This document shows positions 40,841 through 58,992 of a stretch of DNA of 64,000 nt, piece by piece. A program made the translations under genes and the position numbers. How positions within the stretch are numbered: position 1 is the stretch's first letter; each line of letters starts with the position of its first letter. The DNA is from Verrucomicrobiaceae bacterium (GTDB taxonomy: Bacteria; Verrucomicrobiota; Verrucomicrobiia; Verrucomicrobiales; Akkermansiaceae): positions 1-64,000 of the forward strand of contig JAIXOR010000007.1 of assembly GCA_027486655.1 (NCBI GenBank), given 5' to 3'. The notes under the pieces were generated by a model. The model was not told the DNA's origin, did not search any database, and saw only the letters and a program-made list of their open reading frames with translations.

Positions 40841-40876
40841 GCCACCCCGGCCCTCCGCGGCCGGGGTGGCTTTTTT
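40841..40876 (+). terminator. intrinsic terminator after the symporter operon
   Basis: A perfect 12-bp stem (gccaccccggcc / ggccggggtggc, 40841-40852 and 40859-40870) with a 6-nt loop, followed by six T (40871-40876). It separates the sugar-transport transcript from the MbnP-MbnH operon. Confidence 0.95.
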
Positions 40877-40970: not shown

Positions 40971-42863
40971 ATGCGAATCCCCCTGCCATCTGCCCCCCGG
41001 ATGGATGAAAGCCCGGCACAGCGGAAATCCGCCCCTGCCGCCTTTTGTCGTTCGTATGCCCACGGTATCCGCCTCATCGCAAGAACGGCGGAATCGCTGA
41101 CGCGTGCAGCGGCGGCACTGGCCGCGGTGATCCTTGCCGCCTCCAACCATGTCCGGGCCGCTGGCGAGCTGGACTTGGAGTTCATCCCGATGGCGGGAGA
41201 CGGAGCCCTCCCGGCGGGCTCCGCATTCGACACCACAGCCAATGGCCGCCTCACGGTTTCGCGGCTGGATTTTCTCGTCACCGGACTGGCCCTGCAACGC
41301 GAAGATAGCACCTGGATCGAGTCCGCTCCAGACTGGGTGGACTTCGTCAGCCTCGGCAAACGACGGCTCACCGTGAAAACCACCGGCGTCGCGGAGGCGG
41401 ACTACCAACGCATCCGCTTCCGCATCGGTGTGACTCCCGAGACCGACCGTCAGGACGTTTCGTCCTTCGCCCCGGGCCATCCGCTTCATCCCGATGTCTG
41501 TGGCCTGCATTGGAGTTGGCAGGGAGGCTACATCTACCTCGCGCTCGAAGGCCGCTCGTCACGGACACTCCACGGCGCGGATGGATTTTCGTTCCATCTC
41601 GCCCGGGAGGGCAATGCCCCATGGGTCGAGCTCCCGGTGCGGTTCCGTGGCGGCGGACCGGTCACCATCCGTGTGGCGATGGATGTGCCTTCCGTTCTAA
41701 CAGGCGTCGATTTCCAACAACACGGCAACGCCACCCACTCCCGTGATGGGGATGCGATTCCCGTCCTGATGAAACGCAATCTTGCCAGCGCGTTCCGCAT
41801 CGATTCCGTGAAGTCCGATGTCTTCACCCGTGCCCGTGCCGAAGGTGGCGTGGTCTCCGCGCTGCCGGAGGGCACCCGTGCCTATCCGTTAGAGGTTCCC
41901 TCGCGTTTTCCCAAGGTTGCCCTCCCTGCGGACAATCCGCTCACCGTCGAGGGCGTGGAACTCGGCAGACGCTTGTTTCATGAAAACCGGCTCTCGGTGA
42001 ATGATTCGATCTCCTGCGCTTCCTGCCATCAGCCGGAAACGGGCCTCAGCGATGCACGCCGCTTCAGCATCGGCGCCGAGGGACACGCCGGCAAACGCCG
42101 CTCGATGCCACTTGTCAACCTAGCCTGGCAAAAGGAACTCTTCTGGGACGGTCGCGCCCCGTCCCTGCGCGAACAGGTCCTCATGCCCATCCGGGATGCC
42201 CATGAGATGAACGAAACCCCGGAAAACGTGGTCTCCAAGCTCGCCATGGATCCCGTCTATCAGAATTTGTTCGGCAAGGCCTTCGCCTCGCCCGGCGTCA
42301 CGGTGGACCGCATGGCCCGCGCCCTCGAACAGTTCCTGCTCACCCTGATTTCCCACGAATCACGCTTCGATCTGGCCCTGCGCCAGGCCGGCGAACTCAC
42401 CGAAACCGAAAAACGCGGCCTCCAGCTCTTCGTCACCGAACACGCCCCCGAACGCGGCCTCCGCGGTGCGGACTGCTTTCACTGCCACGGCGGCATGCTT
42501 TTCAGCGACCACGCCTTCCACGACAACGGCCTCGCACTGGACGAGTCGGACACCGGCCGCATGCAGGTGACCGGAAACCCCGCCGATCGCGGGAAGTTCA
42601 AAACGCCCACTCTGCGCAACGTCGCCCTGCGCGCTCCCTACATGCACGACGGCCGCTTCGCCACACTCGAGGAGGTCGTCGAGCACTACAACTCCGGGGT
42701 CCGCCGTCGGCCCACGCTCGATCCGAACCTCGCCAAGCACCCTGCCGGAGGCCTCGGGCTTTCCACCGAGGAGAAACAAGAACTCGTCGCCTTCCTCCGC
42801 ACGCTCACCGACCAAAGCAAGTCCCCCGTCCCGCCGGAATCCCCCACCGCCTCCCAGCCATGA
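40971..42863 (+). CDS. MbnP copper-binding domain fused to MbnH-type di-haem peroxidase
   Basis: 630 aa; a long N-terminus ends in a signal-like segment (ALAAVILAASNHVRA) before residue 64. Residues about 65-250 match MbnP: LDLEFIPMAGDG, RLDFLVTGLALQ, FRIGV and CGLHWSWQGGYIYLALEG with Trp181 and Trp183. Residues about 290-615 form a di-haem cytochrome c peroxidase/MauG-type domain with CASCH (349-353), CFHCH (502-506), SMPLVNLAW, KTPTLRNVALRAPYMHDGR. MbnH is known to oxidise a Trp of MbnP to kynurenine, creating a copper site; the two are normally separate proteins. The stop overlaps the next start as ATGA. Confidence 0.85.
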   Translation: MRIPLPSAPRMDESPAQRKSAPAAFCRSYAHGIRLIARTAESLTRAAAALAAVILAASNHVRAAGELDLEFIPMAGDGALPAGSAFDTTANGRLTVSRLDFLVTGLALQREDSTWIESAPDWVDFVSLGKRRLTVKTTGVAEADYQRIRFRIGVTPETDRQDVSSFAPGHPLHPDVCGLHWSWQGGYIYLALEGRSSRTLHGADGFSFHLAREGNAPWVELPVRFRGGGPVTIRVAMDVPSVLTGVDFQQHGNATHSRDGDAIPVLMKRNLASAFRIDSVKSDVFTRARAEGGVVSALPEGTRAYPLEVPSRFPKVALPADNPLTVEGVELGRRLFHENRLSVNDSISCASCHQPETGLSDARRFSIGAEGHAGKRRSMPLVNLAWQKELFWDGRAPSLREQVLMPIRDAHEMNETPENVVSKLAMDPVYQNLFGKAFASPGVTVDRMARALEQFLLTLISHESRFDLALRQAGELTETEKRGLQLFVTEHAPERGLRGADCFHCHGGMLFSDHAFHDNGLALDESDTGRMQVTGNPADRGKFKTPTLRNVALRAPYMHDGRFATLEEVVEHYNSGVRRRPTLDPNLAKHPAGGLGLSTEEKQELVAFLRTLTDQSKSPVPPESPTASQP

Positions 42864-45800
42864 ATCCCCGCGAAACCACCGCACGCCTGCTGCTTCTCTC
42901 CGTGTTCAGCACGGCCCTCGCCCCGAGCCTGCGCGCGGACATCAATCACGCCGCCGAGGACGAGCTCGCCGCCGCCGCCGCCGCCCTCGCCCCGAAGTTC
43001 AATCCCAAGCGCGATGCGGTCACCATCGAGAAGATCCTCGCCGAGAAGAAAGCCGCGGAAGCCAAGAAGAAGAAAAAGGGCAAGAACTCGAAAACCCGGC
43101 TCACCGCCAAGGCCACCCTCATCAACGGCCCGGACACCCAGGGCAAATGGGGCTCCGTGATCGCATGGACGCCGCACATTCCGGTCACCGCTTCCCTGCT
43201 CCCTAACGGAAAATTGCTCACCTTCGCCTCCAATCAACGCACCACCTTCCCCAGCGGCCCGGAGTTCACCTACGCCGCGGTCTGGGATCCGGCCACCGGG
43301 CAGTTTACCGAGGTCAACAACCCGCGCCACGACATGTTTTGCGGCGGAACCGCTCTCCTGCCGGACGGTCGCCTCGTCGTCAATGGCGGCCGCGCCACCA
43401 CCGTGCTCTCCAGCGTGTTCGACTGGAATGCCAACCAGTGGGTCGCCCTGCCCAACATGAACGACCCGCGCTGGTACAACCCCAGCGTGGCCCTGCCCGA
43501 TGGCGGCGTTTTCACCGTGAGCGGCAGCGGCGGATCCAATACCGCGGAACGCTGGGACTCCGCCACCGGCTGGAGGCGTCTCTCCGGTATCGGCTGGAGC
43601 GCCGTCACCTCGCAGCCCGGCTACATCAACATCTGGCATCCCTTCCTGATGCTCGCGCCGAATGGCAAGCTCTTCCACTTCGGCCCCACCGATGCGATGA
43701 ACTGGGTGGATCCCGCAGGAACCGGCACCCTCACCGCCGCCGGTCGGACCATTCCCGGAACCCACTATCCCAAGGAAGGCGCGTGGGCCATGTTCGACGA
43801 AGGCCGCATCCTGGTCACCGGAGGTGGCGCAAACACCACCTCAGGCAGCGACTCGACCACCGGCACCAGCACCGCCGCCTCCTACACCGTGGACCTCCGG
43901 GGCACCTCGCCCGTCGTCGCCAGCGCCACACCCATGACCATCCCGCGGCAGTTCGCCAACACGGTCGTCCTCCCCAACGGCGAGGTCATGGTCATCGGCG
44001 GAAACGGCGGCGTGAAGTTCAGTGATGCCGCCTCCGTTCTCACTCCCGAGATTTGGAACCCGCAAACCGGTGCCTGGCGCACCGTCGCCAATCACGTCAC
44101 CCCGCGGAACTACCACTCGGTCGCCCTGCTCCTCCCCGATGGCCGCGTCTGGTCCGGCGGCGGCGGCCTCGGCGGAAATGCGGCCGACCACCGCGATGCG
44201 GAAATCTTCACGCCTCCCTCGCTCTACAACGAGGCCGGCACGCTCGCCACCCGCCCGGTCATCTCCTCGATGCCCGCCCGCGTTGGCGTCGGCACTCGCT
44301 TCACCGTGAATGCCACCGCCGGGCTCTCCCGCTTCACCATGATCCGCATGTCCGCCGTCACCCACTCGGTGAACACGGACCAGCGCTTCCTCAATGCCTC
44401 ATTCATCGAGACCAGTCCCGGCGTCTATCAGATCACCGCCCACCCGAACATCAACGTGCTCACGCCCGGATACTGGATGCTCTTCGGGCTCAACTCGGCC
44501 GGCGTCCACTCGGTGTCCCGGATCTTCCAGGTGGACCAGCGCGCCACGGTCTCACTCACCAATCCCGGAAACCAGGCGGGCTACACCGGAGAGGCCGTGT
44601 CCCTTGATCTAACAGCCGCCGCCCCGGCAGGTGCCTCGCTCGCCTTCGCCGCCACCGGCCTGCCAGCCGGGCTTTCCATCGACTCCTCCACCGGACGGAT
44701 CAGTGGCACCCCCACCGCCACCGGTGTCTTCCCGGTCACGGTCACTGCGGCCGATTCGCTCACGTCCTCCGCCCAGGCATTCAACTGGACGCTTTCCCCC
44801 GTCACCCGATCGCAGAAATTCTCGACTTTCCCCTCCGCCACCGGGCTCACCCTGAATGGCAACGCCTCGGTCACCTCGTCGCTCCTGCGTCTCACCCCGG
44901 CCCTCACCAACCAGGCGGGCTCCTCGTTTCTCACGCAGTCGTTTCCCGTGCGTGGAAACACCTCGTTCGCGACCCGCTTCGTCTTCCGCCAGGGTGGCAC
45001 CGGCGATGGCGCGGACGGCTTCTGTTTCATCGTGCAAGGTGCCGCCGCCACCTCGCTCGGCACCGGCGGCGGCTCGCTCGGCTACGGCGGCATCGCCAAC
45101 AGCCTGGCCGTCGAGTTCGACAGCTTCGTCGGAACCAATGACCCGAACGCCAACCACATCGGTGTTCTAACAAACGGAAACACCACCACCCACCTCGCCA
45201 CCCACACGCCGAGCTTTGATCTGGAGGACGGCCTCGATCACACCGCCTGGGTCGAGTATGACGGGGTGTCCAACACCCTGCGCGTCTACCTCTCGCAGAC
45301 GGTCACATCCGTGCGGCCCGCCACGCCCGTGATCACGCTCGGCTCCGTGGACCTTGCCGCCCTCGCCGGCCAGCAAGCGTGGTTCGGCTTCAGCGGCGGC
45401 ACCGGCGGCTCGTTCAATGCGCATGACATCCTCGCCTGGGACGTGGCCATGGATGCAAACAAACTCCCCAGCCTCTCGCTGCCACCCGTCCTCACCAACC
45501 CCGGCCCGCAACTCGCCGTCACCGGAAACCCGGCCTCCCTCCAGCTTGCGGCGAGCGATCCGGAAAACGACGCGCTCACCTTCACCGCAAGCGGCCTGCC
45601 CTCCGGCCTCTCTATCAGCTCCGGAGGCCTCGTCACCGGCACCCCCACCACCGCAGGGGACTTCACCGCTATCGTGAATGTCGCCGATGGCACCAACGCC
45701 CCGGTTTCCACCCAGTTCGCATGGAAGATCAACCCGCCCTTCGTGCTTCCCCAACTGTCCGGCTCTGCCGTGAGCGGCGGCTCCACCACCACCTTCAGCC

Positions 45801-48800
45801 TCAGCGCCACCGGCGGACGCAACGTGCGCTACAAATGGAACTTCGGCGATGGAACGCCGGAAACTTCCTACAGCAGCTCGACCTCCGTCACCCACGTCTT
45901 CGCCAGCCCGGGACGCTACCTCGTCACCGCCACCGCCACCGATGACACAGGCCGCACGCTCACCGTGAGTTTCTATCAGGGCGTGTCCGCTCCGCTCACC
46001 AGCCGCGCTCCCGCCGCCTCGTCCAGCATCGCCATCGAAAAGCGCAGCAGCGGAAACCCGCGCGTCTGGGTGGTCAACCCGGACTCGGATACCGTCTCGG
46101 TGCTCGATGCCGTCACCCGCGCGAAACTCGCCGAGATCCCCGTCGCCGCCTCACCCCGCAGCGTCGCTGTCGCTCCGGATGGCCGCTTGTGGGTCGCCTG
46201 CGCCAAAGGCAGCGCGGTATCCATCATCAGCCCGGCTTCTCTAACAGTCGTGCAGTCGCTTGCCCTGCCCCGCGGCTCCCGTCCCTTCGGCATCGCCTTC
46301 GATCCCGCGGGCTCCGCCGCCTGGCTCACGCTCGAAGCCACAGGCCGCCTGCTCAAGCTCCACGCCTCCACCGGCGCGGTTCTAACAGACACGGCGGTGG
46401 GCCCGGACCCTCGCCACCTGTCCGTCACCCATGATGGATCTTCTGTGTTTGTCAGCCGCTTCATCACCCCGCTGCTCCCCGGAGAAAACACCGCCACTGT
46501 CAATCCCTCCGGCCGGGGAGGGGAGATCGTGCAGGTAAACGGTTCCACCTCCGCCGTCCTCCGCACCATCCTGCTCCGCCACAACGAGGCCCCGGACACT
46601 TCGATCTCCGGCCGCGGCATCCCGAACTATCTCGGCGCTCCGGTCATCACGCCGGACGGGCTCTCCGCATGGATCCCCTCCAAGCAGGACAACATCCTGC
46701 GCGGCACGCTCCGCGATGGCCAACCGCTCACCCACGACAGCGCCGTGCGGCCCATCGCCTCCCGCGTGAACCTGTCCACTCTAACGGAAGATCACCCCGC
46801 CCGCATCGACTTCAACGACGCCGGCACCCCCACTGCCGTCTGCCACGATCCCTCCGGCATCTACACCTTCGTCGCCCTCGAAGGCAGCCGCGCCGTCGCC
46901 GTCGTGGATACCTGGAATCACGTCGAAATCACCCGCTTCGACGCCGGCCGCGCTCCTCAGGGACTCGCCCTGTCGCCGGATGGCAACACGCTCTTCGTTC
47001 AGAACTTCATGGACCGCTCCGTGACCGTGCACGATGTGAGCGGCATCCTCCGCGGTGGCAGCGCCACACCCGCTCTGCTCGGCTCCGTTTCCACCGTCGC
47101 GGTGGAATCCCTCGCTACTCCGGTTCTGTTAGGTAAGCAGCTCTTCTACGATACCAAAGACAACCGCCTCGCACTCCAGGAATACATCTCCTGCGCCTCC
47201 TGCCATGCGGACGCCGGTCACGACGGCCGCGTCTGGGACTTCACCGGCTTCGGCGAAGGACTGCGCAACACGATCACCCTGCGCGGCCAGGCCGGTCAGG
47301 GGGCCTTCCACTGGTCTGGCAACTTCGATGAAATCCAGGACTTCGAAGGCCAGATCCGCGCCTTCGCGGGCGGCATCGGCCTCATTCCGAGCGGAAACCC
47401 GCATCCGCCCATGGGCACGCCGAACTCAGGCCGCAGCAGTGACCTCGACGCCCTCGCCGCCTATCTCGGTTCGCTCACCGGCACCGACGAAAGCCCCGCC
47501 CGCCAGGATGCCGCAGTGCTTCCTCCAAGCGCCGCCGCCGGCCGCGATCTCTTCATCACGAAAAACTGCGCGTCCTGCCACTCCGGCCCGGAGTTCACCA
47601 ACAGCGCGGTTGGCGTCTTCCGGGACATCGGCACCATCAAGTCCACCACCGGCAAGCGCCTCAATGCCACCCTGCCAGGACTCGATGTGCCTACGCTCCG
47701 CGGCCTCTGGACCACCGCCCCCTATCTGCACGATGGCTCCGCCGCCACCGTCAGCGCGGCCATCAGCGCCCACTCGGGAGTCTCTCTCAGCACCACCGAA
47801 CTCGCCGATCTCACGAACTACCTCCTCAACATCGACGAATCCATCCCTTCGGCTCCCGCCCCGCTCACCGAGTTTGTGGAAACCTTCGCCACGCCCTCCC
47901 TCGATGCCTCGCGCTGGACCGTCGGCACGCCCTACGGCCGCATGTTCGCCCCGGCCGACCCGCTCGTGACCGTGCGCCAGGAATCCGGTAAACTCATCCT
48001 CACCCCGCGTGCCAATACGGCCGTCGAGGGCTACAACGGCGTGCTCTCCACCGACTTTGTCGATCTAACAGGATCCGCCCTTGAAGTGGAGGTTTCCCCG
48101 GCCGGTGGCACCGCGAACACCTGGCTCGCTCTCGGTGGCGGAAATGGCAACTTCCTCGTCATCGGCCGCGAGGGATCCGTGCTCTGGCTGGAGCAGATGG
48201 TCAATGGCGTGCGTGACGTCACGCTCTTCGATTACAACGCCGCCGCCCACAAGCTCTGGCGCATCCGGCACGACGCCGCCAGCGACCGTATCCTCTATCA
48301 GCTCAGCGCGGATGGCGTGGCATGGACCACCGCCCGCTCCGTGGCCCGCGCCTTCGGCATCGGCGCGCTGCGTGTCGAACTCGGCGGCGGCACCTACCTC
48401 TCCGAGACCGCTCCCGGCACCGCGTCGTTCGACAATGTGGTGCTCACCAAACCGGCCCTGCCCCCCGTCGTCGGAGCCTTCACCGCCACTCCCCAGGAAA
48501 TCACCGCGGGCGGAAGCTCCACGCTCCGCTGGACGATCACCCCGGGCAGCTCCGCGCTCACCTCAGTCACCTTGAATGGATCCAATGTGCTCGGCAGCGC
48601 CGAAACCACGGTTTCCCCCGCCGCCACCACCACCTACACTCTCGTCGCCACCAGCGCCGCAGGCACCGTGAGCGCCAGCACCACGATCGTCGTCCGCCCT
48701 GCACTCGCCGGCCGCTCGTATGCCGAGTGGGTGGCCGCATTCGGTGGCACCGGATCTCTAACAGCCGATGCCGATGGCGACTCGTTCCCCGAGGGACTCG

Positions 48801-50080
48801 AATACGCGCTCGGCCTCGATCCCGGCAGCGGATCGACCCTCCGCAGCACCCTGCCCGGGGCCAACCCGGCCATTTCCCGCGGTGTGCGCCTCGAACGATC
48901 GGTCGCTCCCGATGGTGCACGACGTTTTGACCTGGTCTTCACCCGTCCGGTCACGCCGCTTCCGGACATCGGCTACGGCTACTGGCTCGAGTATTCCTAC
49001 GACATGGAAAACTGGGGCATCTCCGCCAATCTCAACGGTCTTGGATCCAGCGGCATCCCGGACATCCTCCAGATCCTCGTGACGGATCTCGGCGATGGCA
49101 CGGAAGAGGTCCGCGCAGGCTTCCGCTTCCTGCCCTCGTTCTTTGTGAGGCTGGCCGTCTATCTGCCCGGCGGCACCGTCCGCTCCGCGCCCTTCGGCTG
49201 GCTGAACCGCAACATCCATTTCGCGGAAAACCTGATCGCACCGCCCTTCGCCCGCGAGGCGGTCCATGGTGGGAACTTCACGTTCTCTTCAGCGACACTG
49301 AGCGATCCTGCCGCAGCCTGGAGCCCGGGTGCCTGGCTCGGCCACTTCGCCCACATCACCTCCGGCCCCGCCGAGGGAACGATGCTCCGCATCTCCGGCA
49401 ACACCGCCAACACGCTCAGCTTCGAGGGCGAGTCCCAAGCGCTGTTAGGCCGGCTCGCCTCAGGTCCCGCCGGCACCTACGTGATCCGCCCCTGCCACAC
49501 GCTTGCCAGCCTCTTCGGTGGAAACAACCGCGACAACCTCGTCGCCGGACCCTCATCCACCGCGGACCTCGTCGAGCTCCTGCAACCGAACAGCGCGTTC
49601 TCGGTTTACCACTTCGATGGAAACTGGAAGTCCGTTTCCGCTCCTGGTGTGAATGCATCTACGGTGATCGTTCCACCCACCGATGCGCTCTTCCTCCGCA
49701 GACGCTCCTTCCAAAACTCGGACCTCCACCTCTTCGGTGAGGTCGTGCTCGGCAAACGCGTGGCACCCATCCGCGCGGGCTTCAGCCTGCCGGGAACCTG
49801 GAATCCCATCGAGAAAGCCAACATCGAGACCCTCGGCGCAAACGACTTCTTCACCGCCAGCAGCACCCCGGTCATGGACAGTAACATCTATCTGGAGATC
49901 GGCACGGCCGGCGGACTCTATCCGCACTACCTCAAAACCGGATCCGGCTGGCGCTTCGTGCAGGGAGACAGCACACCCGCGGGAACATCCCCGTTTGCTC
50001 CCGCCTCATCCTGGCTCTGGGTCCGCTACGGGGCGGAGCGCCTCTGGATCCGCGAGCAACCGTTCAACTACACACGCTGA
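42860..50080 (+). CDS. giant secreted protein: galactose-oxidase-like copper radical oxidase plus di-haem peroxidase domain
   Basis: 2406 aa with a signal peptide (about 1-26) and a Lys-rich stretch. Residues about 95-560 are a kelch/galactose-oxidase domain: Cys161 (MFCGG), Tyr206 (RWYNP), Tyr418-His419 (RNYHSVALLLPDGRVW) and His502 (THSVNTDQR) match the Cys-Tyr cofactor and copper ligands, with spacing close to galactose oxidase. Then Ig-like domain, L-type-lectin-like domain (about 651-868), second Ig-like, PKD (about 962-1043), YVTN-type propeller (about 1054-1414), di-haem peroxidase domain (about 1419-1661; CASCH at 1445 and 1570), ConA-like sandwich, Ig-like domain and a C-terminal region like other verrucomicrobial exported proteins. 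Eight copies of the dispersed word lie inside. Translationally coupled to the MbnP-MbnH fusion. Confidence 0.85.
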   Translation: MNPRETTARLLLLSVFSTALAPSLRADINHAAEDELAAAAAALAPKFNPKRDAVTIEKILAEKKAAEAKKKKKGKNSKTRLTAKATLINGPDTQGKWGSVIAWTPHIPVTASLLPNGKLLTFASNQRTTFPSGPEFTYAAVWDPATGQFTEVNNPRHDMFCGGTALLPDGRLVVNGGRATTVLSSVFDWNANQWVALPNMNDPRWYNPSVALPDGGVFTVSGSGGSNTAERWDSATGWRRLSGIGWSAVTSQPGYINIWHPFLMLAPNGKLFHFGPTDAMNWVDPAGTGTLTAAGRTIPGTHYPKEGAWAMFDEGRILVTGGGANTTSGSDSTTGTSTAASYTVDLRGTSPVVASATPMTIPRQFANTVVLPNGEVMVIGGNGGVKFSDAASVLTPEIWNPQTGAWRTVANHVTPRNYHSVALLLPDGRVWSGGGGLGGNAADHRDAEIFTPPSLYNEAGTLATRPVISSMPARVGVGTRFTVNATAGLSRFTMIRMSAVTHSVNTDQRFLNASFIETSPGVYQITAHPNINVLTPGYWMLFGLNSAGVHSVSRIFQVDQRATVSLTNPGNQAGYTGEAVSLDLTAAAPAGASLAFAATGLPAGLSIDSSTGRISGTPTATGVFPVTVTAADSLTSSAQAFNWTLSPVTRSQKFSTFPSATGLTLNGNASVTSSLLRLTPALTNQAGSSFLTQSFPVRGNTSFATRFVFRQGGTGDGADGFCFIVQGAAATSLGTGGGSLGYGGIANSLAVEFDSFVGTNDPNANHIGVLTNGNTTTHLATHTPSFDLEDGLDHTAWVEYDGVSNTLRVYLSQTVTSVRPATPVITLGSVDLAALAGQQAWFGFSGGTGGSFNAHDILAWDVAMDANKLPSLSLPPVLTNPGPQLAVTGNPASLQLAASDPENDALTFTASGLPSGLSISSGGLVTGTPTTAGDFTAIVNVADGTNAPVSTQFAWKINPPFVLPQLSGSAVSGGSTTTFSLSATGGRNVRYKWNFGDGTPETSYSSSTSVTHVFASPGRYLVTATATDDTGRTLTVSFYQGVSAPLTSRAPAASSSIAIEKRSSGNPRVWVVNPDSDTVSVLDAVTRAKLAEIPVAASPRSVAVAPDGRLWVACAKGSAVSIISPASLTVVQSLALPRGSRPFGIAFDPAGSAAWLTLEATGRLLKLHASTGAVLTDTAVGPDPRHLSVTHDGSSVFVSRFITPLLPGENTATVNPSGRGGEIVQVNGSTSAVLRTILLRHNEAPDTSISGRGIPNYLGAPVITPDGLSAWIPSKQDNILRGTLRDGQPLTHDSAVRPIASRVNLSTLTEDHPARIDFNDAGTPTAVCHDPSGIYTFVALEGSRAVAVVDTWNHVEITRFDAGRAPQGLALSPDGNTLFVQNFMDRSVTVHDVSGILRGGSATPALLGSVSTVAVESLATPVLLGKQLFYDTKDNRLALQEYISCASCHADAGHDGRVWDFTGFGEGLRNTITLRGQAGQGAFHWSGNFDEIQDFEGQIRAFAGGIGLIPSGNPHPPMGTPNSGRSSDLDALAAYLGSLTGTDESPARQDAAVLPPSAAAGRDLFITKNCASCHSGPEFTNSAVGVFRDIGTIKSTTGKRLNATLPGLDVPTLRGLWTTAPYLHDGSAATVSAAISAHSGVSLSTTELADLTNYLLNIDESIPSAPAPLTEFVETFATPSLDASRWTVGTPYGRMFAPADPLVTVRQESGKLILTPRANTAVEGYNGVLSTDFVDLTGSALEVEVSPAGGTANTWLALGGGNGNFLVIGREGSVLWLEQMVNGVRDVTLFDYNAAAHKLWRIRHDAASDRILYQLSADGVAWTTARSVARAFGIGALRVELGGGTYLSETAPGTASFDNVVLTKPALPPVVGAFTATPQEITAGGSSTLRWTITPGSSALTSVTLNGSNVLGSAETTVSPAATTTYTLVATSAAGTVSASTTIVVRPALAGRSYAEWVAAFGGTGSLTADADGDSFPEGLEYALGLDPGSGSTLRSTLPGANPAISRGVRLERSVAPDGARRFDLVFTRPVTPLPDIGYGYWLEYSYDMENWGISANLNGLGSSGIPDILQILVTDLGDGTEEVRAGFRFLPSFFVRLAVYLPGGTVRSAPFGWLNRNIHFAENLIAPPFAREAVHGGNFTFSSATLSDPAAAWSPGAWLGHFAHITSGPAEGTMLRISGNTANTLSFEGESQALLGRLASGPAGTYVIRPCHTLASLFGGNNRDNLVAGPSSTADLVELLQPNSAFSVYHFDGNWKSVSAPGVNASTVIVPPTDALFLRRRSFQNSDLHLFGEVVLGKRVAPIRAGFSLPGTWNPIEKANIETLGANDFFTASSTPVMDSNIYLEIGTAGGLYPHYLKTGSGWRFVQGDSTPAGTSPFAPASSWLWVRYGAERLWIREQPFNYTR

Positions 50081-50140: not shown

Positions 50141-51940
50141 ATGCAAACGTCTCGTCGTGATCTCCTGAAAACCACCGCCCTCGGCGGATTCGCCACCTCC
50201 ATCGCCGGGCTCTTCGGCACCTCCACCCAGGCCGGAGCCGTCACCCTGCCCTCCGGCGTCACGATCCGGCCGGACATCGTCCGCCCGCGGCCACGCCCCG
50301 CCGGCCAGAAGCCGGTCCACCAGCTCACCACCAAGCCGCTGGAAAAAGTCCGCGTCGCACACATCGGCCTCAGCCGCGGAATGACCCACGTGAACGATTG
50401 CCTCAACATCGAGTTCGTCGAGGTGGTCGCCGTCTGCGATCTCCGTGAGGACCGCGCGAAAAACGCGGCCGACCGCTGCGAGAAAGTCCGCGGCAAAAGA
50501 CCCGAGGTCTACGGCGGCAGCGAGAACATCTGGGAGAAACTGGTGGCCCGAGATGACATCGACGTCGTTTACATCTCCACCCCCTGGGCCTGGCACGTGC
50601 CGATGGCGGTCGCTACCATGCGCGCCGGCAAACACGCTTTCGTGGAAGTCTCCGCCGCGGTCACCGTGGACGAGTGCTGGAACCTCGTGGACACCAGCGA
50701 GCGCGAACAACGCCACTGCGTGATGTTGGAAAACTGCTGCTACGGGGAAAACGAACTCTTCGTCCTCAACATGGTCCGAGAGGGCGTGTTCGGCGAACTC
50801 ACCCACGCCGAGTGCGCCTACATCCACGAACTGCGTGGCATGCTCTACTCGCTCGGCACCGAGGGCGACTGGCGCCGCGATTACCACTGGCAATACGACG
50901 GCAACCTCTACCCCACCCACGGCCTCGGCCCCGTGGCCCAATACCTGGGCATCGGCCGCGGCGATCAGTTCAAGTTCCTCGTTTCGATGAGCTCCCCCGA
51001 GAAGGGCCTCAGCGCCTGGAGGGACAAGCGATCTCCCAACGGCGGCAGGCACGCGAAGGAGAAATACGTCTGCGGGGACATGAACACCTCGATGATCAAA
51101 ACCGAGCTCGGCCGCACCATCATGATCCAGCATGATGTGATCAGCCCGCGCCCCTACAGCCGCATCAATGCTCTATCAGGAACCGGTGGCACCTTCTTCG
51201 ATTACCCCGCGCGCCTCGCCCTCGATGAACCGCGGAAATACCGCCTCGATGCCGATGGCTCCCACGAATGGCTGGGCGACAAGGACCTCGCACGCATGCG
51301 AAAGCTCTTCACCCATCCGCTCTGGAGCAAGCTGGCCGAACGCGCCAAGGGCTCCGGCCACGGCGGCATGGACTTCGTGATGAACTGGCGTCACCTCGAC
51401 TGCATCCGCCAGGGCATCACCCCGGACAGCGTGGTCTATGATGCCGCTTCCTGGAGCTCGATTCTCGAACTCTCCTCCCTCTCCGTCGCCACGGGCAGCA
51501 TGCCGGTGGCCATCCCGGACTTCACCCGTGGCCTGTGGAAATCGATGGAGCCTCTTCCCATCGCGTTCAAGACCCCCGGCAGCACGATCGCCGCGCCGGT
51601 CCGCATCGCGGAGTGGAGCCCGGCCGACCTCAAGCCGGATTGGACGATCAAGAACTGGGACGTCAGCCGCGGCATCAACGGATCCGGTGACTTCGGATTC
51701 GAGTTCCAATACACCCGCGGCTCGCATCGTCTGGACTTCCGCAAGGTCGCCCTGCTTGCCGATGGAAAAGCCATCGACCACACGGACCGCCCGGGCTTCA
51801 CCGGCATCGCAAACTCGAACAACCTGATCCGCTTCAAGGTCCCCACCCACCAGCCGGGTGCGGTCTATCAGCTCCAGGCCGAGATCAAGGGCGACGGCGG
51901 CACCGACTCCCACGGGGAAATCTCGATCTTCCGCGACTGA
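50141..51940 (+). CDS. Tat-secreted GH109-type Gfo/Idh/MocA enzyme
   Basis: 599 aa from ATG at 50141 with a twin-arginine signal (TSRRDLLKTTALGGFA). The NAD-binding Gfo/Idh/MocA domain has VAHIGLSRGMTHVNDCLN and VVAVCDLREDRA. GHGGMDFVMNWRHLDCIRQG and DAASWSSILELSS resemble GH109 alpha-N-acetylgalactosaminidases, which use bound NAD for a redox-assisted hydrolysis. About 110 C-terminal residues extend beyond the usual fold. It is 60 bp after the copper-oxidase gene on the same strand and may be co-transcribed. Substrate assignment rests on family resemblance only. Confidence 0.8.
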   Translation: MQTSRRDLLKTTALGGFATSIAGLFGTSTQAGAVTLPSGVTIRPDIVRPRPRPAGQKPVHQLTTKPLEKVRVAHIGLSRGMTHVNDCLNIEFVEVVAVCDLREDRAKNAADRCEKVRGKRPEVYGGSENIWEKLVARDDIDVVYISTPWAWHVPMAVATMRAGKHAFVEVSAAVTVDECWNLVDTSEREQRHCVMLENCCYGENELFVLNMVREGVFGELTHAECAYIHELRGMLYSLGTEGDWRRDYHWQYDGNLYPTHGLGPVAQYLGIGRGDQFKFLVSMSSPEKGLSAWRDKRSPNGGRHAKEKYVCGDMNTSMIKTELGRTIMIQHDVISPRPYSRINALSGTGGTFFDYPARLALDEPRKYRLDADGSHEWLGDKDLARMRKLFTHPLWSKLAERAKGSGHGGMDFVMNWRHLDCIRQGITPDSVVYDAASWSSILELSSLSVATGSMPVAIPDFTRGLWKSMEPLPIAFKTPGSTIAAPVRIAEWSPADLKPDWTIKNWDVSRGINGSGDFGFEFQYTRGSHRLDFRKVALLADGKAIDHTDRPGFTGIANSNNLIRFKVPTHQPGAVYQLQAEIKGDGGTDSHGEISIFRD

Positions 51941-54091: not shown

Positions 54092-57000
54092 TCAGGCGGG
54101 CATGGGGCCGATGGTGGATTTGATGGTTTCTGAGGTGAGGGGTGACGGGAGTTCGGGGAAGGGTTTGCCGAAGGCGGTGATGGCGTCGCGGAGGGCTTCG
54201 CGGACGGAGATGGCGAGCATGAGCGGGGGTTCGCCGACGGCTTTGGAGCCATGGATGGTGCGGGGTTGTGCAGCGTTTTGGAGGAGGGCGACGCGGAAGT
54301 CGGGCGGGGCATCGCTGAAGGCGGGGATGGCGTAGGTGCTGGCGCTGTGGGTGAGGAGACGGCCTTCGTCGTTCCAAAGAAGTTCCTCGGAGGTGAGCCA
54401 TCCGGCGCCCTGGACGTATCCGCCTTCGATCTGGCCGCGGTCGATGTCGGGATTGAGCGAATCTCCGACGTCGTGGAGGATGTCCGTGCGGAGGATGCGG
54501 TGCATGCCGGTGAAGCCATCGATTTCGACTTCGGAGACGGCGGCGCCGAAGGCGAAGTAGTGGAAGGGTTTGCCGTGGGCGACGGCCCAGTCCCAATCGA
54601 GGTCCGGAGTGGCGTAGAAGCCGGCGGCGGAAAGTTGTATGCGGCGGGTGTAGGCGAGGGCGGTGATTTGTGAGAACGGGATGGAGCATCCGTCGGGAGA
54701 GTGAAGGGCGGCGTCCTTGAAGGCGATCTGCTCGGGTGGGCAGCCGAGGGTTTCGGCGGCGAGCGGGGCGAGGCGTGAGCGGAGCTGGGCGCAGGCATCG
54801 GCGACGGCCATGCCATTGAGGTCGGAGCCGGAGCTGGCGGCGGTGGCCGAAGTGTTGGGCACCTTGTCGGTGCGGGTGTGCATGAGGCGGATGGAAGCGG
54901 CGGGCAGGCCGAGTTCGCGCATGGCGATGCCGAGGATCTTGGTATGGAGGCCCTGGCCCATCTCGGTGCCGCCGTGGTTCACCTGGACGGATCCATCTGC
55001 ATAGACGAGGACAAGCGCGCCGGCCTGGTTGTAGTGTTTGAGGGTGAAGCTGATGCCGAACTTGACCGGGGTGATGGCGAGTCCGCGTTTGCGGAAGGGC
55101 TGGGTGAGGTTCCAGTCGTGGATGGCGGCACGGCGCTTGGCAAAGTCCGATGAGGCGAGCAGTTCGTCCCAGAGGCGGTGCAGGCGGTTGTTTTCGACGG
55201 TTTGGCCGTAGTGGGTGATGGAGGCATCGCCCTCGTTCTGATAGAAATTCCGCGAGCGGACTTGCTCCGGCGGTAGGCCGAGGTGAGTGGCGATGCGGCC
55301 AAGGATTTCCTCGATGACCAGCATGCCCTGGGGGCCGCCGAAGCCACGGAAGGCGGTGTGTGAGGTGGTGTGGGTGCGGCAGACGCGGCCGGTGAAGCGG
55401 ACGTGGGGAATGAAGTAGGCGTTGTCCAGGTGGAAGAGGGCGCGATCGTTGACCGGCTGGGAGAGGTCGAGCGACCAACCGCCGTCGGAGAAGAGTTCGA
55501 TGTCCGCGGCGAGGAGTTTGCCATCTGTATCGAAGCCGACTTGGAAGCGGGCGAGGAAGGGGTGGCGCTTGCCGGTGGACTCCATGTCGTGATCGCGGTC
55601 GAGCTGGAGGGAGACGGGGCGTCCGGTTTTGACGGCGGCGAGGGCGCAGATGGCGGCCCAGGGATTGGCCTGGGTTTCCTTGCCGCCGAAGCCGCCGCCC
55701 ATGCGCGGGCATTCCACGACGACGCGGTGGCGTGGCCAGCCGAGGACTTCGGCGACAATGGTCTGGGTTTCGCTGGGGTGCTGGGTGGAGGAGTGGACGT
55801 GCACACCGCCCTCGCCATCGGGTTCGGCGAGGACTGCCTGGGTTTCCAGATAGAACTGCTCCTGGCCGCCGATGGGGAAGACGCCGTGGATGACGTGTGA
55901 GGAGTTGGCGAGGCCGGACTGTACATCGCCGCGGGTGAGGTGGCGGGGGTCGGTGTGAAAGGAGTCGGCGGCGATGGCCGAATCGATGCCGAGAAGGGGA
56001 GGCTGCGGGCTGAGATCGACGTGGACGATGGCGGCGGCGACGCGTGCCTGTTCGAGGGAATCCGCGATGACGGCGGCGAGGATCTGGCCGTGGAAGAGCA
56101 CCTCGGATTCGGCGAAGAGCGGTTCGTCGTGGCGGGCGGGGCCGGTGTTGTTAGAGCCGGTGACATCGGCTGCGGTAAGCACCGCTCGGACGCCGGGCAT
56201 GGCGATGGCCTGGGAGACATCGATGTGGTGCAGGGTGGCGTGGGCGGTGGTCGCGCGGACCAGCCAGACGTGGAGGCTGCCGCGGCGCAAGGCGATGTCC
56301 TGAGTGTAGAGCGCGGAGCCGGTGACGTGGCCGATGGCTGACTCGTGGACCATGTGGGAGGCCGCAAGCGGGGCGAGCACAGGGGGATCGAAACCGGCCG
56401 GCTCCTCGCCTGTTAGAAAACGGAGATAGAGTTCGCGGACCAGCATCGATCGATAGTCGGCGGAGCCGCGCAGGTCGGAGAGCGGGGTGAACTCGCTTTC
56501 GAGCAACGAGAGGATGGTTTCCGATCGCGCCTCGCAGGGGGAGAGGCCGATGAGGGCTGCCTCGGTCTTGAGGGCGCGTGCGGGAAACGCGGCGACACCG
56601 CCGAAGGCGAGACGGGCGGTGGCGATGCGGTCTTCGTCGTCAAAGGCGATGCGGATGGCTGCGGACACGGTGGAGATGTCCATTTCGCGGCGCTTGGAGA
56701 CCTTGGCGAAATCGCAATGGCCGGGTGGGTCTGCCGGAAGAAAGATCGAGACCAACAGTTCGTCCGCGCGCATCACCGTGCGGCGGTATCCGGTAAAGAA
56801 CTCCGCGAGCGGGATGATGCGTTCGCCGGAAGGGGATGCGAGCCGCAATGAGGCATCGAGAGCGAGCAGGACCGGAGCGGAGTCGCCGATGGGGGATGCG
56901 GTGACGAGGTTTCCGCCGAGGGTGGCGCGGTGCCGGATCTGGCGAGAGGCGAAGAGACGGAACATCCGGTCGAGCGCCGGGTAGGCTCCGTGGAGTTTGT

Positions 57001-57754
57001 TTTCCACATCGGTGAGGCGGGCGGCCGCGCCGATGGTCCAGCCTGCGTCGCTGCGGTGGATTTCCGCGAGTTCCGGAATGTGCTCTAGGGAAATGAGGAG
57101 TGCCGGGCGGTGATGGCGCTTGTTGATGAGGACGGCGGTCTCGGTGGCTCCGGCGATGAAGTCCGCCTCGGGATGCTTTTGTTTGAAGGCGAGGGCCTCT
57201 GCGATCGAGCGCGGACGGAGGTAGCCGTGGGCATCGGTCGCAGCCGGTGGTGTGCCAGCGGGTGGCGGTGGGAGCGGAGCACCGGGCATCACCGCGGCTG
57301 CCTCGCGGATGGGTCGGTATCCGGTGCAGCGGCAGAGGTTTCCGCAAAGCTGGTCGGCCACAGCGGCGGGCTCCTTCTGGATGCCACGGGCGGAGGCCTC
57401 CGCGAGGGAGCAAACAAAACCAGGCGTGCAGTATCCGCATTGCGAGCCGCAATGATCGACCATGACGCGTTGGGCGGGGTGCAATGTGCCATCCGGTGCG
57501 GCGAGTCCCTCGGCGGTGATGACCGCCCGGCCTGCCAGCGAGTGGACGAGAGCAAGGCAGCTGTTGATGGCACGGGGTGGGCCATCGTTTTCGAGGAGAA
57601 GGACGGTGCATGCTCCGCAATCTCCCTCGTTGCAACCGGACTTCGAACCGGTGCGTCCGGTCCTGCGGAGGAAGGCCAGCAGGTTTTCGTGAAGCGGAGC
57701 ATCCGAGAGATCCGCCGCAGTGCCATTGATGAGAAGGGCGGGGCGTGGGTTCAT
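54092..57754 (-). CDS. xdh: xanthine dehydrogenase, single-chain (Fe-S, FAD and Mo domains fused)
   Basis: 1220 aa from ATG at 57754. N-terminal [2Fe-2S] ligands are GCNEGDCGAC (Cys41, 46, 49) with Cys66, then CGSQCGYC and LCRC for the second cluster. The FAD domain (about 185-450) has FIAGATETAVLINKR and TLGGNLVTASPIGDS. The molybdopterin part has GGGFGGKE, TAFRGFGGPQG, VNHGGTEMGQG and the catalytic-type Glu in GEPPLMLAISV. It oxidises hypoxanthine and xanthine to urate. Most bacteria split this into two or three subunits, and here it is one chain as in eukaryotes. Its ATG overlaps the upstream amidohydrolase stop; it ends the catabolic operon. Confidence 0.93.
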   Translation of the reverse strand: MNPRPALLINGTAADLSDAPLHENLLAFLRRTGRTGSKSGCNEGDCGACTVLLLENDGPPRAINSCLALVHSLAGRAVITAEGLAAPDGTLHPAQRVMVDHCGSQCGYCTPGFVCSLAEASARGIQKEPAAVADQLCGNLCRCTGYRPIREAAAVMPGAPLPPPPAGTPPAATDAHGYLRPRSIAEALAFKQKHPEADFIAGATETAVLINKRHHRPALLISLEHIPELAEIHRSDAGWTIGAAARLTDVENKLHGAYPALDRMFRLFASRQIRHRATLGGNLVTASPIGDSAPVLLALDASLRLASPSGERIIPLAEFFTGYRRTVMRADELLVSIFLPADPPGHCDFAKVSKRREMDISTVSAAIRIAFDDEDRIATARLAFGGVAAFPARALKTEAALIGLSPCEARSETILSLLESEFTPLSDLRGSADYRSMLVRELYLRFLTGEEPAGFDPPVLAPLAASHMVHESAIGHVTGSALYTQDIALRRGSLHVWLVRATTAHATLHHIDVSQAIAMPGVRAVLTAADVTGSNNTGPARHDEPLFAESEVLFHGQILAAVIADSLEQARVAAAIVHVDLSPQPPLLGIDSAIAADSFHTDPRHLTRGDVQSGLANSSHVIHGVFPIGGQEQFYLETQAVLAEPDGEGGVHVHSSTQHPSETQTIVAEVLGWPRHRVVVECPRMGGGFGGKETQANPWAAICALAAVKTGRPVSLQLDRDHDMESTGKRHPFLARFQVGFDTDGKLLAADIELFSDGGWSLDLSQPVNDRALFHLDNAYFIPHVRFTGRVCRTHTTSHTAFRGFGGPQGMLVIEEILGRIATHLGLPPEQVRSRNFYQNEGDASITHYGQTVENNRLHRLWDELLASSDFAKRRAAIHDWNLTQPFRKRGLAITPVKFGISFTLKHYNQAGALVLVYADGSVQVNHGGTEMGQGLHTKILGIAMRELGLPAASIRLMHTRTDKVPNTSATAASSGSDLNGMAVADACAQLRSRLAPLAAETLGCPPEQIAFKDAALHSPDGCSIPFSQITALAYTRRIQLSAAGFYATPDLDWDWAVAHGKPFHYFAFGAAVSEVEIDGFTGMHRILRTDILHDVGDSLNPDIDRGQIEGGYVQGAGWLTSEELLWNDEGRLLTHSASTYAIPAFSDAPPDFRVALLQNAAQPRTIHGSKAVGEPPLMLAISVREALRDAITAFGKPFPELPSPLTSETIKSTIGPMPA

Positions 57755-58992
57755 GCGCTCAGATCGAAAAGGGTACGTGCAAGCACTGCAGTGCCGCGGG
57801 TGATGGCCTCGGGCCGTGAATACTCGTCCGGTCGGTGGGACCAGCCGTTGAGGCAGGGGATGAAGAGCATGGCGGTGGGGCAAAGGCGTGCCATGAAAAG
57901 CGAGTCGTGATAGGCCCGGCTGATCATCGGGATGCGTGAGCAACCCAGTGAATCCGCATGGCGCGCAGCAATATCTAACAAATCCTTCGCGCAAACCGCG
58001 GGTGGATCCGAGTTGATGCAGGACCAATCGAGCGAAACCCCGCGGCGGGCACAGGCGGCGGCGGCGTCCTCGCGAATGCGGGCCAGCGCCTGATCGCGGG
58101 CGGCGAGGTCTGTATCGCGGAAATCGATTTCCATCATCGCTTCGCAAGGGATTGAGTTGATGGCGGAAGGCGAAATGCGGATCACACCGGTGGTGCCGAC
58201 GGTGTCCGGTGACGGGGACTCGATGGCGGCGCGCTCGACGGCAAGGGCGGTTTCCGCGGCGGCGAGAAAGGCATCGTGACGGTCCTTCATGAGCACGGCT
58301 CCGGCATGTCCTCCGGTGCCGGTAAAGTAGAGACGGAAGGCAGCGGGCGCGGCGATGTGGGTGACGAGGCCGATGTCCAGGCCGGCGGTATCGAGCTGTG
58401 GGCCTTGTTCGATGTGCAGCTCGACAAAGGCATGATAACAGCCTTCCGCGAGGCGGACTTCTTCAAGATCCCCCGGGCAATCCGCAGGACGGAGGTCTTC
58501 CAGCGATCGGCCATCCGGGTCGCGGAGGGCGCGGGCTTTCTCCGGGGAGAGCGCACCGGCGAGCATTCTGGATCCGAGGCAGCCAAGACCGAAGCGGGTG
58601 GGTTCCTCAGCGGTGAACATGATCAATTCGATCGAACGCCGCGGAGTCAGGCCCGCCTCGCGGATCGAGCGCAGGGCCTCCAATCCGCCGAGCACCCCGA
58701 CGGTGCCATCGTAGGCACCGGCGTTCGGGATGGCGTCGGTGTGGGATCCGGTGGCAACGGGTGGAAGCGAGGGATCCGAGCCTTCGAGAGTGATGAACAG
58801 GTTTCCTACGGCATCGAAGCGGGTGGCGAGCCCGGCATGAGAGGCGAGCGAGACCAACCAGGCGCGGGCGGCGAGATCCTCCGGTGAAAAGAGCACGCGG
58901 GTGACGGCGGGAGCCGGGTGCGCGGAGATTGTCGCGAGGTGGGCGAGTTCGGCGAGGAGGCGGTCCTCGCGGATGTTCAGTGGGCTGGGCAC
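57751..58992 (-). CDS. ureidoglycolate amidohydrolase-like M20 enzyme
   Basis: 413 aa from GTG at 58992; the frame upstream enters the ureidoglycine gene. Metal-site motifs are GSHTDAIPNAGAYDGTVG, FTAEEPTRFGLGCLGSR, HIEQGPQLD and YHDSLFMARL. The EEPTRFG...CLGSR wording is closest to plant ureidoglycolate amidohydrolase, whereas the paralogue at 61025 resembles allantoate amidohydrolase. It would release glyoxylate, CO2 and ammonia from ureidoglycolate. It overlaps the xdh start (ATGA) and lies 17 bp after the ureidoglycine gene. One dispersed word encodes Leu-Leu-Asp (57974-57981). Confidence 0.85.
   Translation of the reverse strand: MPSPLNIREDRLLAELAHLATISAHPAPAVTRVLFSPEDLAARAWLVSLASHAGLATRFDAVGNLFITLEGSDPSLPPVATGSHTDAIPNAGAYDGTVGVLGGLEALRSIREAGLTPRRSIELIMFTAEEPTRFGLGCLGSRMLAGALSPEKARALRDPDGRSLEDLRPADCPGDLEEVRLAEGCYHAFVELHIEQGPQLDTAGLDIGLVTHIAAPAAFRLYFTGTGGHAGAVLMKDRHDAFLAAAETALAVERAAIESPSPDTVGTTGVIRISPSAINSIPCEAMMEIDFRDTDLAARDQALARIREDAAAACARRGVSLDWSCINSDPPAVCAKDLLDIAARHADSLGCSRIPMISRAYHDSLFMARLCPTAMLFIPCLNGWSHRPDEYSRPEAITRGTAVLARTLFDLSA

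Follow-up and report, generated by a model that had tools for sequence, protein, structure and literature searches.

Reduction of their radical deprives copper-radical oxidases of activity, and in vitro they reach full activity only with a peroxidase; in the pairings found in the literature this partner is a separate protein. A fungal AA5 oxidase is activated through one-electron oxidation by a haem peroxidase that is a protein of its own, and high peroxidase efficiency is not needed for this (PMC9770985). The fungal tandem Perox-AlcOx pair described there likewise pairs an AA5 oxidase genetically with an activating haem partner, in the form of two proteins with a class II peroxidase. Maturation of the bacterial copper-radical oxidase GlxA of Streptomyces at low copper needs the haem peroxidase DtpA and the copper chaperone Sco (PMC4736821). 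The copper-kynurenine systems MbnP-MbnH, MopE-SACCP and CorA-CorB consist of a copper-binding protein and a MauG-like di-haem enzyme; CorA and MopE bind copper in a kynurenine site and are co-transcribed with di-haem enzymes (PMC3912023). Here we describe a locus of a Verrucomicrobiaceae bacterium in which related parts are found side by side. It lies in the window, i.e. the whole analysed stretch of 64,000 nucleotides (assembly GCA_027486655.1, contig JAIXOR010000007.1, positions 1 to 64,000), and combines a copper-radical-oxidase domain, a propeller and a c-type di-haem domain in one chain, preceded by a gene for a fused MbnP-MbnH protein, in the following called the helper. We read it as a secreted copper-radical oxidase of the AA5 type to which a redox partner is tethered and which, in Verrucomicrobiota, is served by a dedicated copper helper, the oxidase being reactivated by the haem unit, and give this reading a probability of about one half.

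An earlier note on this DNA had reported an open reading frame for a secreted protein of 2406 residues, which is indeed present, with an N-terminal secretion-type sequence as read by eye. Its coordinates omitted the upstream helper gene, whose end overlaps the oxidase start by 4 nt and which is part of the same unit. The true unit comprises two genes, the MbnP-MbnH fusion and the oxidase/di-haem gene (Table 1). Sequences and predicted models establish the oxidase domain with its ligand residues, both haem-binding motifs, the conservation of the fusion and the pairing of the two genes in one unit.

The sequence likeness of the N-terminal domain to galactose oxidase is far beyond chance. In phmmer searches residues 83-558 align end to end with the solved galactose oxidase 9g8h (3e-92), and residues 94-559 with 1gof (2.9e-72); the values for GlxA 4unm and 9n3u were 2.2e-29 and 7.3e-16. 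A profile search matched the domain to 9g8h with 1.3e-144. The predicted model, built from 48 sequences, reached a predicted local distance difference test score (pLDDT) of 95.1 and a predicted template modelling score (pTM) of 0.94. It superposes on 9g43 with Z 56.7 (460 aligned residues, 1.7 Å), on 1gof with Z 53.4 (462, 1.7 Å), on GlxA 4unm with Z 45.9 (445, 2.2 Å) and on FgrAldOx 9n3u with Z 41.6 (447, 2.6 Å). Since the model superposes on 9g43 and 1gof, the five residues Cys161, Tyr206, Tyr418, His419 and His502, which the earlier note had put forward as counterparts of the galactose oxidase cofactor and ligand residues, should fall at the copper-ligand places. All five were found at the claimed positions. 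The note would have given up the assignment for a deviating fold or for free variation of these residues; the predicted fold matches galactose oxidase, and the residues are conserved in homologues.

For the latter, a scan of a genome collection revealed 68 homologous loci. A first set of ten (L029-L038) largely reappears among them and the two sets are not independent. With the window included, the cross-linking Tyr206 is kept in 69/69 rows and Trp205 in 68/69. Tyr418-His419 is kept in all 64 readable rows (five of the 69 end earlier) and His502 in all 63 (six end earlier). Cys161 occurs in 65 of 69 rows, with Ala in four, a count biased by one locus-search pattern that contained this Cys. Among pattern-free loci it is found in 31 of 32 distinct rows (one Ala), and Trp205 and Tyr206 in 32/32 each; this check used 38 rows, 32 of them distinct, from the best-scoring loci only, which take 30 of 64 places in the order.

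The seven-bladed kelch propeller, the C-terminal E-set fold and the five cofactor and ligand residues of family AA5 are all present. The AA5_2 oxidases 9g43 (Pseudoarthrobacter), 1gof (Fusarium) and 5c86 (Colletotrichum-type alcohol oxidase) share fold and copper/cofactor residues with the window domain at an identity of at most 40% over 460 residues. In contrast to them, the window protein has no counterpart of the W290 loop, carries W205-Y206 instead and is joined to a haem module. The loop that bears the second-sphere aromatic in 9g8h and 5c86, W290 in Fusarium galactose oxidase, is shorter in the window protein and has Gly or Ser, as the alignments to both structures show. A Trp directly before the cross-linking Tyr is shared with AA5_1 aldehyde oxidases and GlxA: it is W509-Y510 in the fungal AA5_1 FgrAldOx, and W288 of GlxA has the same role (PMC13094651). 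By the phmmer values given above, the sequence is much nearer to AA5_2 (9g8h) than to 4unm or 9n3u. As judged from these alignments the active site is mixed, AA5_2-like in overall sequence and AA5_1/GlxA-like in Trp placement. To name the protein a galactose oxidase by activity would not be warranted; alcohol, aldehyde or glycan substrates are all possible.

The 68 loci belong mostly to Verrucomicrobiota. The remainder is labelled Gammaproteobacteria (Leucothrix, Thiotrichaceae, Granulosicoccaceae, Chromatiales, Colwellia and others), Chloroflexi/Anaerolineae and, as one fragment, Saprospiraceae. In 13 loci the contig ends before the di-haem domain. Oxidase, propeller and di-haem domain share one open reading frame in 51 of the other 55, drawn from Verrucomicrobiota, Gammaproteobacteria and Chloroflexi. 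In three of the 55 an in-frame stop or a frameshift breaks up the same modules, and in one (Colwellia, L100) the oxidase stands alone. A fusion confined to a single genome or an assembly artefact can be rejected, as it recurs in many assemblies, and this recurrence in many bacteria speaks for a functioning redox machine and against a fusion by chance. The distances of oxidase and di-haem domains are correlated with a Mantel r of 0.82 (a value reached by none of 999 permutations; 52 fused proteins including that of the window), at mean pairwise identities of 64% for the di-haem and 54% for the oxidase domain. Such co-divergence would be expected of any old co-inherited fusion. A partnership of the oxidase with its fused haem unit is supported by the conservation of the fusion.

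In two of the interrupted loci, L051 (8839-15699) and L112 (7009-13650), which belong to separate lineages, a single in-frame TGA was observed in the linker between oxidase and propeller, which could be a sequencing error, decay or a sign of two-product expression. Four records of metagenome-assembled genomes with the oxidase-haem system (L062, L072, L087, L114) are labelled Akkermansia muciniphila, which looks like misnaming.

The downstream haem domain had been described as a di-haem peroxidase. Its place in the CCP_MauG superfamily and its two CxxCH motifs bear this out in part: Cys, Cys and His of both motifs are each kept in 54/54 rows (window and 53 loci). The character of a canonical peroxidase does not hold up. 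The Met or Tyr sixth ligand of the second haem is replaced by His1638, which aligns with the Met of 3o5c and 1iqc and is conserved in 53/54 domains by alignment and in 49/52 by a stricter pattern; a conserved Met was sought in the 54 di-haem domains and none was found. The distal Gln-Pro-Glu residues are common to bacterial cytochrome c peroxidases (bCCPs), MauG and BthA (PMC6405878). In a pattern search this motif was found in 0/52 fused domains compared to 31/31 oxidase-linked MbnH domains, the window being included in both sets, and HW[ST][GA]NF[DN]ExxDFExQ[IL] takes the place of this region in 50 of the 52. An ordinary peroxidase of the bCCP/MauG type is rejected, given the absent motif together with the His ligand, and the fused domain, judged by these residues, departs from the canonical peroxidases.

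Among PDB entries, hydrazine synthase gamma gave the best profile match to the di-haem domain, with 1.9e-22 summed over three stretches. The model of propeller and di-haem domain (pLDDT 88.6, with lower values in places within the latter) matched best an archaeal YVTN surface protein and second best hydrazine synthase beta, 5c2v_B (Z 37.0, 305 aligned, 1.9 Å); propellers filled the structural matches listed for this model, and the di-haem fold is judged by sequence profiles. In hydrazine synthase beta-gamma (5c2v) a YVTN propeller is likewise followed by a di-haem CCP-like domain, and the gamma-II haem is bis-His (PMC12607021). The fused unit differs from it in being joined to an oxidase and in the lack of the third haem-linking Cys of gamma-I, only the four CxxCH cysteines being conserved. 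Identity with hydrazine synthase is rejected, given the missing Cys and a score of 58 bits against an NCBIfam cut-off of 1250. In the 52 fused proteins the spacer between propeller and di-haem domain measures 12-18 residues and the linker between oxidase and propeller 111-1062 residues, which suggests a compact haem unit on a loose tether to the oxidase. Among the shorter homologues is that of L103, whose open reading frame of 1806 residues contains both oxidase and haem unit.

The upstream gene combines an MbnP domain with conserved Trp and His and an MbnH/MauG-type di-haem domain. The MbnP half carries His180-Trp181-x-Trp183 and His209, with His256 just beyond the domain. Among 41 helpers including that of the window, Trp181, His209 and His256 are each kept in 41/41 and Trp183 in 39/41. 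The MbnH half matches the di-heme enzyme 6e1c with 4.4e-50 (profile match 4e-65) and has the MauG-type Tyr ligand (Tyr573) and the distal Gln-Pro-Glu (Gln402, Pro406, Glu412), each in 41/41. Scores for the narrower NCBIfam models were both below the cut-off, with 248.1 bits for MbnH (TIGR04039; cut-off 362.85) and 31.5 of 140 bits for MbnP_like_WxW. Direct MbnH-MbnP chemistry is known in methanobactin operons. In contrast to the copper-kynurenine systems named above, the helper has both parts in one chain, and its gene lies beside a copper-radical oxidase.

In the first ten homologous loci, nine fused and one interrupted, the helper lies directly upstream in 10/10, one being cut by the contig end. 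Among the 68 loci it was found upstream in 33 (once about 2.5 kb away) and not found, with at least 2.2 kb of upstream sequence seen, in 30, the other five being not assessable. Brevifollis gellanilyticus (L063) and Roseibacillus persicicus (L092), which are cultured relatives, are among the bearers of a linked helper. Across the order 51 of 386 genomes carry the oxidase, though the match is merely distant in G458 (36% identity) and an 81-residue fragment in G469. A helper match at E 1e-60 or better, which at the weak end may span the di-haem half only, was found in 168 of the 386: in 49/51 oxidase genomes compared to 119/335 genomes without oxidase, a contrast whose Fisher values overstate independence, as one genus dominates. 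The helper stands upstream of the oxidase in at least 37 of the 51 (once 2.5 kb away; the match in G494 is interrupted). Of 36 helper genomes scoring 610 bits or more, 34 have the oxidase; this threshold was picked after seeing the list, and a tree is the better test. In a tree of 61 helpers, a 100/100 branch leaves 31 linked ones and 10 unlinked ones from oxidase genomes together on one side, the unlinked nesting among the linked. The other side holds 16 rows, none of them linked, with second copies from four oxidase genomes (L167, L168, L175, L181). Of 14 oxidase genomes without a linked helper, 10 are in the tree, the helpers of G482 and G469 were not placed, and G505 and G458 had no match at E 1e-40. 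As far as these matches and the tree go, the helper tracks the oxidase within the order. The one helper type shared by linked and unlinked oxidase genomes suggests that it acts in trans, in a correlation within few families. The match in G494 (contig C22, 664187-666259, minus strand) lies in two pieces in a 911-residue frame, the parts for MbnP and MbnH being separated by additional sequence.

From these features we infer oxidation of a substrate with release of hydrogen peroxide (H2O2), electron exchange between haem and copper, and copper supply by MbnP. The oxidase would oxidise an extracellular primary alcohol, aldehyde or glycan with O2 to give H2O2. The haem unit, held close by, would exchange single electrons with the copper-tyrosyl site and most likely re-oxidise the resting, semi-reduced oxidase to the active radical form. 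In Verrucomicrobiota the upstream fusion would handle copper for the oxidase: its MbnH di-haem domain would turn a Trp of the attached MbnP domain into kynurenine, giving a copper site that could supply the oxidase and let the Cys-Tyr cofactor form. In comparison with the fungal pair, the activating partner would be a c-type di-haem unit within the same chain (PMC9770985). As for GlxA, a bacterial oxidase would depend on haem enzyme and copper carrier, with MbnH and MbnP in place of the separately encoded DyP peroxidase and Sco (PMC4736821).

Several observations weigh against this reading. The lack of Gln-Pro-Glu leaves the fused di-haem domain with no evident source of oxidising power. The propeller-di-haem unit also occurs in proteins of about 2000 residues with a different N-terminal domain (nine loci, L039-L047) and is therefore not dedicated to copper oxidases. 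As to copper supply, the source genome, which encodes cytochrome c assembly genes, possesses a homologue of Sco as well. The 14 non-verrucomicrobial loci with 2.2 kb or more of sequence upstream yielded no helper beside the oxidase, and neither did 16 of 49 assessable verrucomicrobial loci. In 16 non-verrucomicrobial genomes none among the matches listed covers the MbnP half, and an MbnP domain was found in only 2 of the 16. For G458, with its distant oxidase, and for G505, even a threshold of E 1e-40 brought no helper match. Of the 45 helper rows on that side of the tree which holds the linked helpers, 4 come from genomes without a found oxidase, two of which are 70% and 77% complete. Finally, helper-like genes are common without the oxidase, some beside other genes such as those of YHYH proteins. 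A helper not found beside some oxidases would not be essential to the oxidase everywhere, and a strict requirement is rejected because it was not found beside the oxidase in Gammaproteobacteria and Chloroflexi.

Regarding these other surroundings, a second MbnP-MbnH fusion of the source genome (G000:C76; L156, 7255-11799) lies between two YHYH-family proteins, with open reading frames overlapping on both sides, and YHYH neighbours recur in L164, L177 and L182. In L165, L168, L169, L170 and L175 such fusions stand beside a gene for about 840-860 residues, of which that from L170 matches glucose/sorbosone dehydrogenase.

A stronger version of the reactivation reading can be offered tentatively, as the less probable form. 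The protein would be a self-wired single-chain radical enzyme, in which electrons pass directly between the hydrazine-synthase-like di-haem unit and the copper-tyrosyl site, the unit serving as a switch or offering electrons an outlet other than O2, and the kynurenine-copper MbnP, made competent by its own fused di-haem enzyme, would be the dedicated copper supplier.

Among the competing explanations, a wiring of the oxidase to a cytochrome survives best, unlikely as it is. Electrons would pass from the reduced copper site through the two haems to a cytochrome or extracellular acceptor, making the protein an extracellular dehydrogenase that bypasses H2O2. The copper site of a copper-radical oxidase has a positive potential, and AA5 enzymes normally use O2. 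By analogy with gamma-II, at about -330 mV (PMC12607021), a bis-His haem would be a poor acceptor for such a site, and the long linker of variable length gives no sign of a fixed electron-transfer geometry. Consistent with the wiring, the fused domain combines the invariant CxxCH motifs and a predicted bis-His haem with the lack of a peroxidase motif, as in an electron-transfer unit, and hydrazine synthase gamma is proposed to receive electrons via a surface-exposed bis-His haem (PMC12607021).

The earlier note had proposed that a single chain could make and use H2O2; in such a loop the fused domain would consume the product of the oxidase and so protect enzyme and cell surface. The copper-radical-oxidase half of the note's interpretation is strongly supported. 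The loop itself we consider improbable, even though the domain belongs to the CCP_MauG superfamily and a His ligand at the second haem alone, as in BthA Y463H, does not abolish H2O2 reduction (PMC6405878). Mutation of the BthA Glu (E277Q) impairs peroxidase activity (PMC6405878), and with Gln-Pro-Glu absent and His in place of Met, a self-contained loop by standard bCCP chemistry is doubtful; the upstream MbnH-type domain, which has the motif, would be the better peroxidase candidate.

Similarly improbable is a haem unit that works at the surface as a redox module of its own, joined to the oxidase for common anchoring or transport and exchanging nothing with it directly. The nine other fusions and the very long, variable linkers would suit this. 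Against it, the pairing with the oxidase has been maintained in three phyla with hardly any exception, and oxidase and di-haem domain diverge together, though the latter is expected of any ancient fusion.

The N-terminal domain of L039 is LVIVD-like, and conserved WHP and AHG motifs occur in seven of the nine oxidase-less proteins (L041-L047). The N-terminal region of four of these paralogues gave no Pfam identity beyond LVIVD, lectin-like and Ig-like (immunoglobulin-like) repeats, and an N-terminal profile of all nine had no PDB match. An MbnP-MbnH gene was sought in the nine stretches and none was found.

AA5 oxidases, di-haem modules and MbnP-MbnH are each already known. In literature titles and the openings of abstracts no copper-radical oxidase was found that is joined to a di-haem domain or whose gene accompanies MbnP-MbnH; most subscription journals lie outside this coverage, which leaves novelty unproven. 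If reactivation by the haem unit is correct, the locus represents a widespread one-chain bacterial solution and a new way of keeping a copper-radical oxidase active, of use in biocatalysis. With MbnP as the dedicated copper supplier, MbnP-MbnH proteins would gain a client enzyme, and the linked gene makes this client of kynurenine-copper proteins testable outside methanotrophs. A hydrazine-synthase-like propeller/di-haem unit together with an oxidase also bears on the re-use of that unusual module.

Table 1. Features of the two-gene unit, in window coordinates.
Feature	Position	Strand	Basis or remark
Intrinsic-terminator-like hairpin, separates the unit from upstream genes	40841..40870	+	12-pair stem then T run; consensus match only
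MbnP-MbnH fusion gene, 630 residues	40971..42863	+	stop overlaps oxidase start codon (ATGA)
MbnP-type copper-binding domain, residues 65-252	41163..41726	+	Pfam MbnP PF20243, 83.1 bits (cut-off 27)
MbnH/MauG-type di-haem domain, residues 319-616, two CxxCH	41925..42818	+	CCP_MauG, 183.8 bits (cut-off 25.6)
Fused oxidase/di-haem protein, 2406 residues	42860..50080	+	
Secretion-signal-like N-terminal segment, about residues 1-26	42860..42937	+	read from sequence
AA5 copper-radical-oxidase domain, residues 94-559, kelch propeller and GO-like E-set domain	43139..44536	+	
Cys161, counterpart of cross-linking Cys	43340..43342	+	
Trp205-Tyr206, cross-linking Tyr with Trp just before	43472..43477	+	
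Tyr418-His419, predicted copper ligands	44111..44116	+	
His502, predicted copper ligand	44363..44365	+	
Legume-lectin-like domain (Lectin_legB), residues 653-865, within variable linker	44816..45454	+	Pfam, 109.4 bits
PKD domain, residues 969-1034, directly before propeller	45764..45961	+	Pfam
YVTN-type seven-bladed propeller, about residues 1067-1405	46058..47074	+	
Di-haem domain, residues 1416-1665	47105..47854	+	CCP_MauG and cytochrome c matches
First haem-binding CASCH, residues 1445-1449	47192..47206	+	
Second haem-binding CASCH, residues 1570-1574	47567..47581	+	
His1638, position of bCCP Met ligand of electron-transfer haem	47771..47773	+	predicted bis-His haem
C-terminal accessory region, residues 1670-2406	47867..50077	+	poorly conserved outside nearest relative

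The domain order by Pfam and NCBIfam is kelch/GO-like E-set, putative Ig, legume-lectin-like, PKD, YVTN propeller, CCP_MauG/cytochrome c and a long accessory C-terminus. This agrees with the spacing described earlier, the first CASCH lying about 940 residues past His502 with lectin, PKD and propeller domains in between. The lectin domain was matched in 4 of the ten loci L029-L038, and among 20 loci the C-terminal region gave BLAST matches in L035 only. The source genome has one such oxidase. Terminator-like sites numbered 11 in the region compared to 5.1 expected from shuffles.

A larger conserved gene cluster was considered and rejected: the neighbouring GH109-like, sodium-symporter and galactose-mutarotase proteins had no match at E 1e-15 in the 68 loci (flanks of up to 10 kb). 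The downstream GH109-like oxidoreductase gene, likewise without a match beside the oxidase in these loci, probably starts at the ATG at 50141 (plus strand) and has a twin-arginine-like N-terminus (SRRDLLKT). Further downstream, at 54092-58147 on the minus strand, the window encodes a xanthine-dehydrogenase-type protein with iron-sulfur, flavin adenine dinucleotide and molybdenum-cofactor domains in one chain of 1351 residues.

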